Below are positions 37,416-44,504 of a stretch of 54,461 bases of DNA, piece after piece; the stretch's first letter is position 1, and the number at the start of each line of letters is the position of its first letter. The stretch comes from Scytonema tolypothrichoides VB-61278. Lineage in GTDB: Bacteria; Cyanobacteriota; Cyanobacteriia; Cyanobacteriales; Nostocaceae. Made by a program: the position numbers and the translations under genes. The stretch spans positions 970,430 to 1,024,890 of the forward strand of contig NZ_JXCA02000001.1 of NCBI RefSeq assembly GCF_000828085.3. The letters run 5' to 3'. Below the pieces are notes generated by a model, which ran no database searches, was not told the origin of the DNA, and worked only from the letters and a program-made list of their open reading frames with translations.

Positions 37416-38603
37416 TCAGTTTACTGAATCTTTGATTTTATGTCCTTTTAAGAAATTGGACATGAATGGTCGCTCAAATACTAAGTAAAACAAATAGCCA
37501 ACAAGTAACGAGCTTCCCACACTCAATACATATAATGTCACTGCGAACACCACTGGAGACATTTTTAGGGTTATAAGCCAGTGATTCACTAGCGTTTCTA
37601 CTGGTCCGTGAGTCAAATAGAGACTGTAAGAAAACGTCGAGAGTGCGATCGCCCAAGGATGCTCAAGTAGCTGCATAATCAGAGGTGGCGTTTTACGCGA
37701 AATCACAATCTTAGTGCAATAGATTATCAAACAAGCAGCCGCTATACTAGCAAAGGTTTCGAAAATCCAAGCATCAATTCCGAGTTTCTTCCACTGAGTG
37801 ATGACAGCAACGCCAGCAAAAATCATGGCAAGTCTACCCCAAGGTAAAGATTTTCTGAGTTTCATCAGTTGTGGTTTTTGCGAAAATGCAATCTCGGCTG
37901 CAGCCATTCCGATAGTAAATGAACCCACAAACCAAGGACGGCTAACATCCATATAACCATTAAATAAATAGTGAGGCGTTAGTCCAATAAAAAAAGCGAT
38001 CGCGATGACTGACAATAAACCCCAACGCCGCAACACAGGGAGAAAAACCACAGGAAATAAAAAGTAAATCTGCCATTCTAAAGCAACACTCCATAATGGC
38101 ACATTCATCACAAAAACATCCGTTCCAGGAACAAAATTATAAATGACTAGAAAGTGCAAAATCACATCTACAAAAGAAAAGCGAGGAGAGAACCAGTCGA
38201 ATGCCATCTCACGCCATTGGAAAGTAGTAAATCTCTCTAAACTTAATATGATCACAGCTAATACACAGCAGAAAAGAATTGCTGCATAAAAAGGCGGTAA
38301 AATTCTTCGCGCTCTTCTTTTAAAGTAATCTAATAAATTTCCTGGAATATAACCTGTTTGAGAGCGAGTTACTGGCAGCATTAAACAGTACCCAGAAAGT
38401 ACAATGAAAACTGCAACACTAAAAGAACCATATCTTAATAGTTTGGTTGGCAAAATTATCCACAGAGGTAAGTTCTCCCCTTGGTGCGGTAAAATATGAC
38501 AAAATACCACATATAATGCTGCCAAACCACGTATTCCATCTAAGAAAGAAAGACGTATTTTTTGCTCAGTAGGTGTCTTTGTCATTTGATCCATTCCATT
38601 CAT
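37416..38603 (-). CDS. acyltransferase family 3 membrane protein (OafA/YrhL-like)
   Basis: A 395-residue protein with about ten membrane spans. The N-terminal family motif is LSFLDGIRGLAALYVVFCHI, with the functional His at the end of the first span. RRARRILPPFYAAIL follows on the cytoplasmic side, and NVPLWSVALEWQIYFLFPVV is the conserved loop. Members O-acetylate sugars of surface polysaccharides or peptidoglycan. Two in-frame Met codons (positions 1 and 4) precede it. A remnant of a second such gene lies upstream at 38710-38855. Confidence 0.93.
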   Translation of the reverse strand: MNGMDQMTKTPTEQKIRLSFLDGIRGLAALYVVFCHILPHQGENLPLWIILPTKLLRYGSFSVAVFIVLSGYCLMLPVTRSQTGYIPGNLLDYFKRRARRILPPFYAAILFCCVLAVIILSLERFTTFQWREMAFDWFSPRFSFVDVILHFLVIYNFVPGTDVFVMNVPLWSVALEWQIYFLFPVVFLPVLRRWGLLSVIAIAFFIGLTPHYLFNGYMDVSRPWFVGSFTIGMAAAEIAFSQKPQLMKLRKSLPWGRLAMIFAGVAVITQWKKLGIDAWIFETFASIAAACLIIYCTKIVISRKTPPLIMQLLEHPWAIALSTFSYSLYLTHGPVETLVNHWLITLKMSPVVFAVTLYVLSVGSSLLVGYLFYLVFERPFMSNFLKGHKIKDSVN

Positions 38604-38709
38604 ATAATGTTATGTTTGGATACATTTTTTTGCTATTAATGCTAGAAATAATCGTGCTGTTCTCCTCTACATAGGAGATTTACGCAGATATTATGCATGA
38701 GTGTTTCTA

Positions 38710-38855
38710 TCAACTCACACCATTTTTCACTTGGCGTTTTTTCAAGAAATTGGACAGAAATGGTTGCTCAAAGACTAAATAAAACAGATAAGCAACTAGT
38801 AATGACATTGCCACCTCTACTAAGTAGGATGGTGTTGCAAATGTATCTGAAAGTG
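38710..38855 (-). pseudogene. C-terminal remnant of a second acyltransferase-3 gene
   Basis: The minus strand encodes AMSLLVAYLFYLVFEQPFLS followed by NFLKKRQVKNGVS and a stop. This aligns with the last ~35 residues of the intact neighbour (SSLLVGYLFYLVFERPFMSN...). Similarity fades above about 38855 and the rest of the gene is absent. It fits tandem duplication followed by deletion. Confidence 0.75.
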
Positions 38856-39458
38856 AATTGAATTGTCGCCTATGTCCAGAGCAAATTACCTAGGCTAACC
38901 TTACACAAACCTAGTTTGAAGATGACAGAGAAAATTCACTAGACTTGGCAAGTTCCTTACTGCACACTTAATTCCATCTTCGCTTTAGAATTGCAGATTA
39001 GCGAAAAACTGTCAGATAGCTAACATCAGGTTTCTCAAATGTTTGAAAAATCAAACGTTAAGCTCTAACTTTAGGAACTATTAAATGCAGATATTGTTTA
39101 ATAGATGTACAGCACAAGAAATACTCTGTTTATTCACAAGTAAATCCTGTCGCTAGTATTTAGTATTCACATCCATTTGGAAATCAAATAAACCACTCTT
39201 TATCTTCGGAACTGATTAACAACTGAATATTAATGCTTCGCAGCAGCATCAACCATCTAACTCTCAATTTGCGTTAGTTCGCAGACCGACAAGTTATTTT
39301 AATTCAGGTACTCAGTTATCGAAATATCAAAGCAGTTATTTCAACTCAATTGCATCTTTTGAAGCCATTCCAAAGGAAGAGCGAAATCTTTTCACTCCAC
39401 AAAGATTCAATTATTGAGTCTCTCATGAAATTTCCAAACAGATCTAAGCACATCTGAA
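38856..39458. other. non-coding stretch between the acyltransferase remnant and small gene A
   Basis: An AT-rich region with a small inverted repeat (CCTAGG...CCTAG near 38889-38915). On the plus strand about 65 codons are open from 39220 to 39417, reading a Ser/Gln/Asn-rich peptide with SYFNS twice, but there is no normal start codon. I call no gene here. Confidence 0.4.
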
Positions 39459-39590
39459 TCAAGGAGGAGTATCTCCTACATCAGCCATCACGTTGAAGTC
39501 AACCATCGGAGCGAATAAGTAAATACTTCCCCGACTACTATAACGGCTTTCTTGCAGCCAGTTTTTGTAGTTTGCTGCTGTTGTAATCAT
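39459..39590 (-). CDS. small protein A of a paralogous pair flanking sulP (43 residues)
   Basis: ATG at 39590 opens a 43-residue frame containing KNWLQESRYSSRGSIYLFAP and ending MVDFNVMADVGDTPP before TGA. A second copy at 41699-41827 encodes the same core. Over the 35 or so aligned codons most differences are synonymous third positions (for example TAC/TAT, GTT/GTC, CCT/CCC) or conservative (I/V, D/N, D/E), which indicates that the protein is under selection. I know no family. It lies downstream of sulP on the same strand, 225 bp away. About 100 bp upstream of the ATG are also similar between the copies. There is no clear Shine-Dalgarno. Confidence 0.6.
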   Translation of the reverse strand: MITTAANYKNWLQESRYSSRGSIYLFAPMVDFNVMADVGDTPP

Positions 39591-39814
39591 GATGTGCCAA
39601 GAAAATTTACATATTTACTAAAGCGCCTTTTTACTGACACAAATAGTGTACATCTACCATACTAGAATTAAGTGACAAAATGTTTGTCAAGAAACAGTAA
39701 ATTTTTTCAGACAATCATAAAGATTTCAAAAACACACACTTCCGTGTCTTTCATTATTCATCATGTAGAATCTGGCAAATTGGGACAAAGCCACCTGATT
39801 GTGCTTGTGATAAT

Positions 39815-41296
39815 TTAGTGGTTATTAAGGTTTTCTAGCGCGCCTGGTTTATCGTGAATAGCCAGCTTTTCTAGCAATGTGGCACTCGCTTCATTCAGTC
39901 CCACGAGGTCTACTTCTACACCATTTCTACGAAACTTAATCACTACTCTATCGATGACTGCAACTGCTGCTTGATCCCAAATGTGAGCATGGGTCAGGTC
40001 AATTTTCACACGTTCCAATTCTTCTTTCAAATCAAAAGCAGCAAAAAATTCTTCCACCGATACAAAGAAAAGTTGACCGGAAACGCTGTAAATCCTATAA
40101 CTTTTATCATCGCTAAGAACTGTGTCTACAAACACAATTTTGGCAATGTTGCGGGCAAACAAGACAGTGCTAAATGCTATACCTACGAGAACTCCAATTG
40201 CTAAATTGTGTGTGAGTACAGTCATGAAAACAGTTGTAATCATGACAGCAGTTTCACTTCTCGGTATACGGTGTAAGTTCATTAGAGATGACCAACTAAA
40301 AGTTCCAATCGAAACCATGATCATCACTGCAACTAGGGATGCCATTGGTATTTGCCGTACCCATTTACCTAATACCAAAATGAAGAACAGTAACAACACT
40401 CCAGCACATAAGGTAGAAAGACGACTGCGTCCCCCAGATTTGATATTAATGACCGACTGACCAATCATGGCACAGCCTGCCATCCCCCCAAAGCATCCTG
40501 CCACAATATTGGCAACACCCTGACCTACAGCTTCTCTATTCTTATCACTTGGGGTATCGGTCAGTTCGTCGAGTAGTGACGCAGTTAACAACGACTCCAG
40601 TAAACCTACCACAGCCAAAGGCAATGCATAGGAAAAGATAATCGAGAGTGTCTCAAAGGTCAATGGAACTGTAGGTAAGCTGAAAATGGGAAAGGTAGTA
40701 GGTAATTCACCCATATCGCCTACTTTCGGAACTTTGGTACCCGTAAAGATGGAAAAGGCTGTCAAGACAACAATTGCAACTAATGGCGAAGGTACTACTT
40801 TAGTGAAGCGGGGTAGCAAGTAAATAATGGCAAGACCTACAGCAAGCATGATATAAACTTGCCAAGGCACCCCAACCAACTGGGGCAACTGAGCCATAAA
40901 AATCAAGATTGCCAAGGCATTGACAAAGCCGAGCATAACTGCTCGCGGCACATACTTCATCTGGCGACCTAGCTTGAGCCTACCACAGATAATCTGAATC
41001 ACACCAGTTAGAATTGTCGTTGCAAACAGATATTGCAGTCCATGTTCTTTGACCAATGTAGTCATTAACAGCGCCATTGCTCCCGTCGCAGCTGAAATCA
41101 GCCCAGGGCGTCCCCCTGCAAAAGCTGTCACCACTGCTATGCAAAACGAGGCGTACAGCCCGACTTTAGGATCGACGCCTGCAATAATTGAAAATGCGAT
41201 CGCCTCCGGAATCAGCGCTAGCGCTACTACAGTACCTGCTAAGATATCTGCTTTAGTATTGGAGAACCATTCTCGCTTTAAAACGGTTGTGTTCAA
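39815..41296 (-). CDS. SulP family inorganic anion transporter with STAS domain
   Basis: A 493-residue membrane transporter. The N-terminus [20 protein letters not shown] and the following [19 protein letters not shown] are the SulP/SLC26 signature in the first span. Ten or more spans follow up to about residue 385. The C-terminal STAS domain (about 395-480, with [20 protein letters not shown]) is cytoplasmic. Relatives carry sulfate or, as BicA, sodium-driven bicarbonate; the substrate here cannot be decided. It is flanked by a SulP gene remnant and two copies of a small gene. Confidence 0.92.
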
Positions 41297-41359
41297 GTTA
41301 CCCTCTGCTATTTAGATGTGGAATATTAAGACAGACTACTTAGTGAAGTAGCTTGCTGA

Positions 41360-41510
41360 TTAGAAGCATCGTAATGCACAGAAAACTATTTTGACATTCA
41401 CTTGTTTAGCATTCGCAGCAAAAGTCAAAAATTCAGTCATCAGTGCGAATGCTATAGTTATTCCTGCTATAATGTCGCTTCTAATATTAGAAACCTCTAA
41501 TTTTTTAGAA
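41360..41510 (-). pseudogene. N-terminal remnant of a second SulP transporter gene
   Basis: The minus strand encodes LEVSNIRSDIIAGITIAFAL followed by MTEFLTFAANAKQVNVKIVF, then a stop at 41360-41362. This matches the intact neighbour's [21 protein letters not shown] region at roughly half of the positions. Only the first span remains, and the key PE and following residues have decayed. It sits directly upstream of the intact gene. Confidence 0.65.
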
Positions 41511-41698
41511 GATTTGAAATTTAGGTTCTGTCGTACTTTTAGAAATCCTATATTTCCTGAAGTTGTGCAGTTAAGAATGCAGCTATTTCAAAAAACTATA
41601 TCTATGATAGTTATACGAAAACAGAAGTGAAACCTAATCACTTTCATTAAGATATAATTATTGAATTTTCCTATTCTTTACAACTCATTGCTAGCACA

Positions 41699-41827
41699 TC
41701 AGGGGGGAGTCTCGCCAACTTCAGCCATGACGTTGAAGTTGACCATCGGAGCGAATAAATACACACTTCCCCGACTACTATAACGGCTTACTTGCAGCCA
41801 GTTTTTAGAGTCTGTTACTGTAAACAT
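41699..41827 (-). CDS. small protein B of a paralogous pair flanking sulP (42 residues)
   Basis: ATG at 41827 opens a 42-residue frame containing KNWLQVSRYSSRGSVYLFAP and ending MVNFNVMAEVGETPP before TGA. It matches small protein A from the KNWLQ motif to the last residue, with substitutions mostly at third codon positions. The stretch VYLFAPMVNFNVMA is hydrophobic and could be a short membrane-associated or beta segment. It lies upstream of the SulP remnant on the same strand. The function is unknown; an accessory role to the transporter is conjecture from position only. Confidence 0.6.
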   Translation of the reverse strand: MFTVTDSKNWLQVSRYSSRGSVYLFAPMVNFNVMAEVGETPP

Positions 41828-42085
41828 GATGTACAAAAGCAATTTACACCCTCACTAGATTGCCTTTATATGCAAACAAACGATGTGTAAACATTATCAT
41901 ATAACGAAGTGACGAAATATTTGAAAATTATAAAACTTTTAACATATTTGCCTATTAAATCAAGAAATTGCTGTTGGGGTAGTCAATAGACTTCTTGCAA
42001 AAGTCAATTTTTTGAATCTGAAAACAGATAGATTGGCTAAGTCGGCGAGAAAAATTCAATGTATATGAAGAAATATAAATTTTAT

Positions 42086-42165
42086 GTAGAGTGCATTGTC
42101 GCGCTGCGCAACGCACCTTGAATTGTTGACGGTGCGTGATGCTGCCGTAGGCTAACGCACCCTAC
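42086..42165. repeat. palindromic repeat GTAGAGTGC...GCACCCTAC type
   Basis: The inverted motifs GGTGCGT and AACGCACC, with GCGCTGCGCAACGCACC, form a cyanobacterial-style intergenic palindrome. The remainder of 41828-42347 is AT-rich with short TTCCCTATTCCC repeats. I see no gene in it. Confidence 0.55.
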
Positions 42166-42347
42166 ACAGGCTTTATGCTGGCTTTGAGACCTCAGCGTTG
42201 TACCTCTATTACTTGCAATGCGCTGTATAAAAGAAACGCCATTCATCCTGTTAAGAGTTCCCTATTCCCTATTTCCTCAATAGATACCAAAGTGGATTTT
42301 AGATTTGCGATTAATCCTAAATCTACAATCTAAAATCCAAAATCTAG

Positions 42348-44504
42348 TTACCGATTGACTGCAGCTGCTTCTCGCGCTGCGGCTGCTTGTTCTGGGTGAA
42401 TACCAAGGCGGGTAAGATTAATTCTGCCTTTGTTATCAATTTCTCGCACTTTAATAATCACTTCATCACCAACTGTGACTTCGTCCTCAACTTTGCCAAC
42501 ACGGTAGTCAGCCAGTTGGGAAATGTGGATCATCCCTTCCTTGCCAGGAAGAAATTCCACAAAAGCACCAATTGGTATAATTCGTGTTACTTTGCCTACG
42601 TAAACATCACCTTCATTGAGCTTTCTTGTCATGCCTTGGATAATGAGCCGTGCTTTTTTCGCTTTGGTTTCATCCACAGCAGAAATCGTCACTGTGCCAT
42701 CATCTTCAATGTCAATTTTCGCTCCAGTCTCCTCAGTAATACCCTTAATTGTCTTGCCTCCTGGTCCAATGACCAGACCAATCATGTCTGGATCAATCCG
42801 GATAGTCAACAGACGTGGGGCATAAGGTGACATTTCAGGGCGCGGTTGTTCGATTGTCTGAAGCATTTTCTCCAGAATGTGCAACCGTGCTGCTTTGGCT
42901 TGGTTGATGGCTTGGGAAATAATATCCAAGGATAGACCGGAAATTTTCATGTCCATTTGTAAGGCGGTTATGCCTTTGTCTGTCCCAGCAACTTTAAAGT
43001 CCATGTCGCCCAAAAAGTCTTCTATACCCTGAATATCAGTCAGGACTCGGACTTCGTCGCCTTCCTTAATCAAACCCATTGCAGCACCACTGACGGGTTT
43101 AGAAATGGGTACGCCTGCATCCATCAATGCCAGTGTCGAACCGCACACTGAACCCATTGAGGTGGAACCGTTGGAAGAAAGCACTTCCGATACCACCCGA
43201 ATCACGTAGGGGAATTGTTCTTTTGGCGGAAGTACTGGTAATAGTGCTCTTTCTGCCAGCGCGCCGTGACCGACTTCCCGACGTCCTGGTGCACGTAAGG
43301 GTTTTGTTTCCCCAACGGAGAACGGTGGAAAATTGTAATGGTGTAGGTAGCGCTTATGTTGATCCTGTTGCAAGTCATCAGCCAGTGATTGAGCATCTCC
43401 TGGTGTACCGAGAGTGCAAGCGGATAGCACCTGAGTTAATCCCCGGTTAAATAAACCGCTACCGTGGACTCGCTTGGGCAAAATGCTAACATCACAAGAT
43501 ACGGGACGTACTTCATCAAGCTTACGACCGTCAACACGAACATTATCTTCAATGATTTGACGGCGCATAAGCTTTTTGGTAAGGTCTTTGAATGTATTAT
43601 CAAGAGCCTTACTATTTGCCAATGCGGCAACGCGAATAGAATCTTCTTCTGCAAGTTCTGTGATCGCAGCTTTAATCGATTCCTTGACTGCATCTAAAGC
43701 TGTATCGCGCTGTGTTTTATCAAAATCAAATTGTGACAGAATGTTCTTAATTTCAACACCAGCGCGATCGCGTATATAGTTTTCCAGCGTTGAGTCTACC
43801 TCTGGTGGCTCTTCTTGTGGAATTTCCAAACCAATTTCAGCAATCAAATCTTGCTGCGCCCTAATCAGATCCTGTACAGCTTCGTAGCCAAATTCAATTG
43901 CTTCGATAATGTCTCTCTCTGAGAGTTGATTTGCTCCTGCTTCCACCATGATGACACCTTGTGGTGAACCAGCAACGATCAGATCCAGGTCTCCAGCTTC
44001 AATTTCTGCATAGGTGGGGTTAATGATAAAATCATCTCCTACTAACCCGACACGCACTGCCGCCATTGGTCCGTTAAATGGTATTTTAGCCATTAAAGTG
44101 GCGATCGAAGCACCTGTGACTGCTAGTACATCCGGTGGTACTAACTCATCCATTGAGAGTGTCAGCGCAACAATTTGTAAATCGTCTCGTAACCAAGACG
44201 GGAACAAAGGACGTAGTGGACGGTCAATTAAACGACTAGTGAGAGTTGCTTTTTCTGGCGGACGACCTTCACGCCGCATAATTCCTCCAGGAATTCTACC
44301 TGCGGCATACAGTCTTTCTTCGTAATCTACTGTCAAGGGAAGAAAATCAATGCCCTCTCTGGCTTGTGATCGCGTAGCCGTCACCAAAACTGTTGTGTCC
44401 CCAGATTCTATCAACACCGAGCCACCAGCCTGGGGAGCTAAATGACCAACCTTCAGTCGAATATCCCGTCCGTCAAAGGATATTGACTTCTCAAATTCTC
44501 CCAT
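42348..44504 (-). CDS. pnp: polyribonucleotide nucleotidyltransferase (PNPase)
   Basis: A 718-residue phosphorolytic 3'-5' exoribonuclease. It has two RNase PH domains (about 1-230 and 315-550) with [20 protein letters not shown] and the second-domain catalytic region [20 protein letters not shown] and [11 protein letters not shown]. The KH domain has [16 protein letters not shown]. The C-terminal S1 domain has [20 protein letters not shown]. It works as a trimer in RNA turnover and tail synthesis. The length is normal for cyanobacteria. AAGGA lies upstream of the ATG. Confidence 0.97.

Follow-up and report, generated by a model that had tools for sequence, protein, structure and literature searches.

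The DNA studied here (the window) is a stretch of 54,461 nucleotides from the cyanobacterium Scytonema tolypothrichoides VB-61278, and its minus strand carries two upstream open reading frames (uORFs) that encode closely similar short peptides. Copy A (39459..39590) has 43 codons for 43 amino acids and terminates in VGDTPP, copy B (41699..41827) has 42 codons for 42 amino acids and terminates in VGETPP, and in both the Thr-Pro-Pro is followed by TGA. A first-pass annotation had reported both frames at these positions with a shared peptide core, and had counted about seven synonymous and five replacement changes between them; our codon comparison over the last 35 codons agrees with this count (7.5 synonymous and 5.5 replacement differences). 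A third copy of the uORF is located on a different contig of the same genome. Copy A precedes an intact acyltransferase-3 gene (PF01757; 37416..38603, minus strand), its presumed target, and between the two lies the C-terminal remnant of a second acyltransferase-3 gene (38713..38859, minus strand), which was absent from the earlier annotation. Downstream of copy B, we found a gene for a SulP/STAS transporter (39815..41296, minus strand) and an N-terminal SulP remnant (41405..41542, minus strand), already recognised in the first pass and indeed real, which begins inside the expected 3' half of the copy B leader. A -10-like hexamer (TAGTAT, 39659..39664, minus strand) is positioned 68 nt before the start codon of copy A; in most of 19 related leaders this position is occupied by TAGGAT or TAGTAT, and we infer a promoter there.

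Members of the uORF family are common among Nostocaceae. A search with copy A gave a match at E <= 0.01 in 34 of 59 genomes (its own included), comprising 7 of 7 genomes of the same genus, 25 of 28 of the same family and 2 of 24 of the same order. None of the 55 uORF matches in the 59 genomes contains an internal stop; with these homologues and the third copy, the likeness of the two frames goes well past what chance would give. Across the phylum, an alignment of 28 peptides used as query matched 42 of 386 genomes at E <= 0.001, 40 of them in the window's own family and two in one other family. Moreover, named genomes were scanned, and 116 of the 152 candidate stretches were confirmed; the best 80 of these 116, which constitute our named-genome set, belong mostly to Nostoc, Anabaena, Dolichospermum, Scytonema, Brasilonema, Calothrix and Tolypothrix, and also include Gloeocapsopsis, Aliterella and Trichocoleus. 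No match to the uORF was found in a plasmid collection. Neither peptide matched a family in Pfam or NCBIfam, the best hit (Pfam MC8, E 0.18) remaining under the cut-off, and the description of the family as unrecognised therefore holds. The 165 copies assembled, some of which are one locus present in two collections, were thinned at 95% identity in a fixed register to a non-redundant set of 122. Candidate start codons are situated 38 to 44 codons before the stop codon, mostly 42, so that the length of the uORF hardly varies. For the 48 copies of gapless form among the 55 (52 loci), pS was 0.60 and pN 0.10 when pooled over pairs, values that are uncorrected for saturation or relatedness. This difference indicates purifying selection and bears out the earlier view that the frames are real small genes; judged by their codon evolution, both frames are confirmed to behave as real coding sequence under purifying selection.

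The most constant feature of the peptides is their end. A C-terminal Pro-Pro is present in 121 of the 122 non-redundant copies, with Pro-Ser in the other one, and in 2 of 510 neighbouring ORFs, all distinct and at least 150 aa long. The stop codon itself is free (TAA in 67 copies, TAG in 31 and TGA in 24). According to an excerpt of PMC3985003, Pro-Pro is underrepresented at bacterial C-termini, and in this position it favours the tagging of chains stalled at the stop codon. Directly before the last two Pro codons, 120 of the 122 copies have a T (39468 and 41708 in the window, minus strand), in a codon for Thr, Asn, Ala, Phe or Val, and this T represents a constraint at the nucleotide level. 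A hairpin within the coding region, formed by GGAG and CTCC around the VGDTPP codons, was rejected on two grounds: pairing between the third base of Val(-6) and that of Pro(-2) occurs in 49 of 121 copies against a shuffled mean of 59.9, and an ungapped consensus of 69 uORFs folds weakly (-1.0 kcal/mol).

To type the partner genes, all loci were turned to one direction and the first co-directional gene was compared with reference clusters. In 114 of the 122 non-redundant loci this gene encodes an O-acyltransferase, which is of the hexapeptide type in 98 cases, of the acyltransferase-3 type in 14 and of a second acyltransferase-3 group in 2. The other loci have a glycosyltransferase (4), SulP (2), another gene (1, a divergent copy, L083) or no gene at all (1, at a contig end, L044). 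The 110-copy set taken alone gives 93 hexapeptide enzymes, 10 acyltransferase-3 and 2 of its second group, 4 unassigned genes that are the same glycosyltransferases, no SulP and one locus with none. Pfam typing, carried out on representatives only, found PF00132 (Hexapep) in the L085 and L073 proteins, PF01757 (Acyl_transf_3) in the window gene and in one acyltransferase-3 of the second group, PF01501 (GT8) in L100 and PF00535 (GT2) in L160; L099 and L113 were typed as glycosyltransferases through their likeness to L100. Between the uORF stop and the partner gene the spacer mostly measures 250-900 nt, its extremes being about 100 and about 1100 nt; in most groups it is poorly conserved. Genomes with several copies, such as G003 with 6 uORFs, hold one before each partner gene, as predicted by an action in cis. 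Close paralogues in the same genome (L196, L201 and L202) have no uORF within their 1.5 kb flanks, indicating that only some acyltransferase genes carry the leader.

Several neighbourhoods show further particularities. At L073, the gene located 295-1540 downstream of the uORF stop encodes a hexapeptide acyltransferase that carries a GAF domain (PF01590) at its C-terminus, and the domain may point to a ligand from the same pathway. The version of this enzyme in L052 is similarly long. In 19 of the 110 copies (for example L127, L145 and L163), the leader and the hexapeptide enzyme are followed by a DUF3769 gene. The DUF3769 protein of L068 matches PF12600 and, more weakly, LptD_N, which hints at a link of this neighbour to outer-membrane or envelope polysaccharide. 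Finally, in a decayed copy (L038, G003:C1:6350846), an N-terminally truncated acyltransferase-3 begins about 100 nt after the leader stop.

The first-pass annotation let the likeness between copies A and B end at the TGA. This is wrong, since one hairpin model of the downstream RNA matches both leaders, at 39313..39434 (minus strand, 101.4 bits) for copy A and at 41560..41681 (minus strand, 87.7 bits) for copy B, both being seed rows of the model. This model of the core hairpin region (P2), named R1, was seeded with 36 of the 122 leaders, picked partly for having the stem. In the 59 genomes, R1 gave 27 matches at E <= 0.01 against 55 uORFs, and all 27 start 15-27 nt past the uORF match. Among the fetched loci, 28 of 55 and 47 of 80 (the best 80 of 116) match R1 at E <= 0.01, seed rows included; the other matches in these loci up to E 1 are weak and coincide with uORF sites, three being on the opposite strand. 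When 86 held-out leaders were aligned by sequence alone, 73.6% of cells paired in the hairpin, compared with 68.8% for arms taken from different leaders (highest value 71.4% in 500 draws) and 36-44% for slid arms, and at least 12 of the 16 hairpin pairs formed in 30 of the 86. The hairpin is therefore common, occurring in about half of the family, and is not universal. Rfam covariance models gave no match at E <= 1 in 38400-42900 of the window. A further hairpin, upstream of the start codon, is not claimed, its consensus folding about 2.5 SD beyond column shuffles in two groups.

In the clade of copy A, the hairpin is part of a much larger structure. The structured leader RNA of copy A spans 39168..39446 (minus strand) as judged from covariation, folding z and model match, and its outermost pairs begin 12 nt after the stop codon. 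Its main closing helix joins 39429-39437 with 39177-39185 (UUGGAAAUU with GAUUUCCAA, 9 of 9 pairs), opening 21 nt past the stop codon and closing about 250 nt later. The corresponding alignment (A3) consists of 23 leaders from the stop codon to +330, drawn from the copy A clade and from Nostoc hexapeptide leaders. Its consensus fold has -53.9 kcal/mol, compared with -10.7 +/- 3.0 for 30 column shuffles, of which the lowest gave -15.9. Changes on both sides occur in 33 of 76 pairs against 19.6 in shuffles, and the share of paired cells is 87.0%, compared with 83.3% after shuffling and 35-46% after sliding. All these controls flatter the fold, because the structure was predicted on the same alignment and the rows are related. 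The fold of about 280 nt in this clade is supported by covariation. Taken alone, copy A has a folding z of -4.48 (0 of 200 shuffles) and copy B one of -1.80 (7 of 200); in copy B, 15 of the 16 P2 pairs and 7 of the 8 inner pairs are intact, but only 4 of 9 in the main closing helix.

R2, a model built for this large fold, scored 285.1 bits for copy A and 101.3 bits for copy B, both being seed rows. At E <= 0.05 it matched 32 of the 80 named loci (the best 80 of 116), of which 15 are seed rows and the remainder include same or near-identical loci. In 36 genomes, R2 matched 13 places, each adjoining a uORF when compared by eye with the uORF matches. Another 20 leaders were aligned on sequence only: the paired fraction reached 0.67 or more in 6 of them, at least two being close kin of seed rows, and 0.46-0.64 in the other 14, the slid-partner control giving 0.36-0.42. 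The structure varies between groups. The 25 leaders of the hexapeptide/DUF3769 group show the hairpin only (-1.4 against -0.1 +/- 0.2 in 20 shuffles), and the 10 leaders of a Brasilonema-type hexapeptide group support a variant fold (-44.8 against -22.5 +/- 3.3 in 20 shuffles). More generally, 61 leaders (every second of the 122) have a mean folding z of -2.56, with 19 below -3, and control segments 320-620 nt downstream have a mean of -1.22, with 7 below -3.

These observations suggest that the uORF and the leader RNA probably form a cis-acting regulatory leader that governs the downstream gene. The uORF shows two general features of a leader peptide: it is a short and conserved ORF, upstream of and co-directional with its partner, and selection acts on the peptide sequence. 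Given the position of the -10-like site, the transcript would start about 60-70 nt before the uORF of roughly 42 codons, which codon evolution suggests is translated. The C-terminal 35 residues and the Pro-Pro before the stop codon would then slow or arrest the terminating ribosome, perhaps in response to a metabolite or to translational state. About 35 conserved residues reaching to the stop codon suit a chain that acts in the ribosomal exit tunnel. A ribosome with a stop codon in its A site covers roughly ten bases beyond it, and its front would thus adjoin the start of the leader pairing, namely the hairpin in about half of the family and the fold of about 280 nt in the copy A clade. The ribosome would touch only weaker outer pairs, since the best closing helix does not begin until 21 nt past the stop codon. 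Expression of the gene that follows would depend on whether the leader RNA is folded or held open; in nearly all cases this gene encodes an O-acyltransferase, presumably acting to acetylate a cell-surface glycan. It is the combination of a Pro-Pro-stop end, a peptide of tunnel length and pairing near the ribosome front that leads us to propose a ribosome-controlled folding of the leader.

How the arrest would be read out is constrained by the apparent lack of Rho. Rho exceeded the curated cut-off in 0 of 20 genomes (the window's own included) against 8 of 14 control genomes; the weak Rho-model matches present in 19 of the 20 reach at most 32.8 bits, the cut-off being 509, and are presumably other ATPases. 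A TnaC-like read-out through Rho was rejected on this count, and any read-out by Rho appears unlikely in these bacteria. In a leader tree built by a quick method, in which 52 of 119 inner branches are open and which came with long-branch warnings, 14 changes of partner type are needed; starred branches alone require at least 4 changes between hexapeptide and acyltransferase-3 labels. We also put forward, tentatively and as possible rather than probable, a composite regulator in which a Pro-Pro-stop nascent-chain sensor would be combined with a large RNA fold starting where the arrested ribosome has its front, in bacteria without a Rho match over the cut-off. It would have been recruited repeatedly (the 14 changes in the quick tree) to unrelated surface-glycan enzymes, with O-acylation following one intracellular signal.

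Other explanations have to be considered. The conservation of amino acids over 35 residues is strong and the gene order is constant, as would be expected of a small protein acting in trans, such as an acyltransferase partner or inhibitor encoded next to the enzyme. However, the enzymes accompanied are of unrelated types (hexapeptide, acyltransferase-3 and glycosyltransferases), there are several uORFs where a genome has several partner genes, the C-terminus is fixed at Pro-Pro-stop, and an RNA element often comes directly after the uORF; we thus regard a function in trans as unlikely. We attach an equally small chance to the uORF and its structured tail being a separate small mRNA or dual-function RNA with a 3' end of its own, the enzyme gene having its own promoter and being linked by position only. 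The spacer is indeed long and poorly conserved, and the structured part ends well short of the enzyme gene, but the co-directional link is kept in 114 of 122 non-redundant loci and no intrinsic terminator-like site was found in 38500-39800 and 41280-42340 of the window, and so none past the fold. An exported peptide that served as a signal, or that the neighbouring enzyme acylated as its substrate, would explain the constant acyltransferase neighbourhood, but is very improbable, since reading the sequences by eye revealed no hydrophobic or signal-like stretch, the conserved part extends through the last residue, and glycosyltransferases follow as well.

A cis-acting leader has parallels in known systems. 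To our knowledge, few leader peptides have been characterised in cyanobacteria. One likeness is to TnaC of the tryptophanase operon, also a short uORF with Pro before the stop codon, in which an arrest of termination, with Pro in the P site at the stop codon, controls the downstream gene (excerpt of PMC8429421, which names Trp12, Asp16, Ile19 and Pro24 as residues of TnaC). In contrast to TnaC, the peptides described here have about 42 residues rather than 24, end in Pro-Pro and use any stop codon; moreover, Rho is not over the cut-off, a hairpin or large fold comes after the stop codon, and the genes downstream encode glycan-modifying enzymes. The arrest peptides of the RAPP type, found upstream of protein-localization genes, share a conserved C-terminal Pro-Pro in an upstream ORF (excerpt of PMC12992588). 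Here, however, Pro-Pro is mostly preceded by Asp/Glu-Thr, the stop codon follows immediately and the downstream genes are mostly for acyltransferases; none of the 28 aligned peptides ends in Arg-Ala-Pro-Pro or Arg-Gly-Pro-Pro. A conserved short peptide and a conserved RNA structure before a gene are also combined in odc1 and uORFC-6-1, for the latter of which stalled ribosomes have been suggested (excerpt of PMC8632094), but these concern other taxa and genes, and in our family the fold comes after the uORF stop and reaches about 280 nt in one clade. In the literature on cyanobacterial leader peptides, arrest peptides, uORFs and acyltransferases, represented mostly by the openings of abstracts, we found no paper on this uORF family and no leader peptide before acyltransferase genes. 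The 26 novel genes of a proteogenomic study of Nostoc 7120 (excerpt of PMC8557916) could include the leader peptide. If the proposed regulation is true, the family would provide a marker for surface-polysaccharide-modifying genes of filamentous cyanobacteria, a new candidate arrest sequence open to cell-free testing and an example of RNA folding under ribosome control that does without Rho.

The view of the first pass, a small-protein family tied to SulP transport and duplicated as a block, can hardly be right: copy B does precede SulP here and in one related species, and SulP lies farther downstream, behind acyltransferases, in four more non-redundant loci (L041/L101, L048/L108, L062/L128 and L093), but SulP is directly next in only 2 of 122 copies against 114 for O-acyltransferases, copies A and B belong to different clades, and the copy B leader is truncated. 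The two SulP cases are a single locus in two species, the window locus and the counterpart in a relative (L033 and L035), so that direct adjacency does not recur beyond it, and a SulP-specific function was rejected on these neighbourhood counts. In the same quick tree, the acyltransferase leaders that group with copy B come from Scytonema and Tolypothrix (support 92), and those that group with copy A from its own genus (support 97, starred). This separation rules against a recent block duplication, which we rejected accordingly. As the copy B leader RNA ends where the SulP remnant begins, the position before SulP looks secondary, and deletions likely joined this leader to SulP. The best reading of the window is that the acyltransferase-3 gene has a complete leader in copy A, and that copy B is a truncated leader now joined to SulP. 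At about 42095-42180, the window contains a GC-rich stretch with the look of an inverted repeat (minus strand, TGCGTTGCGCAGCGCGAC), which we take to resemble the scattered repeats of filamentous cyanobacteria.
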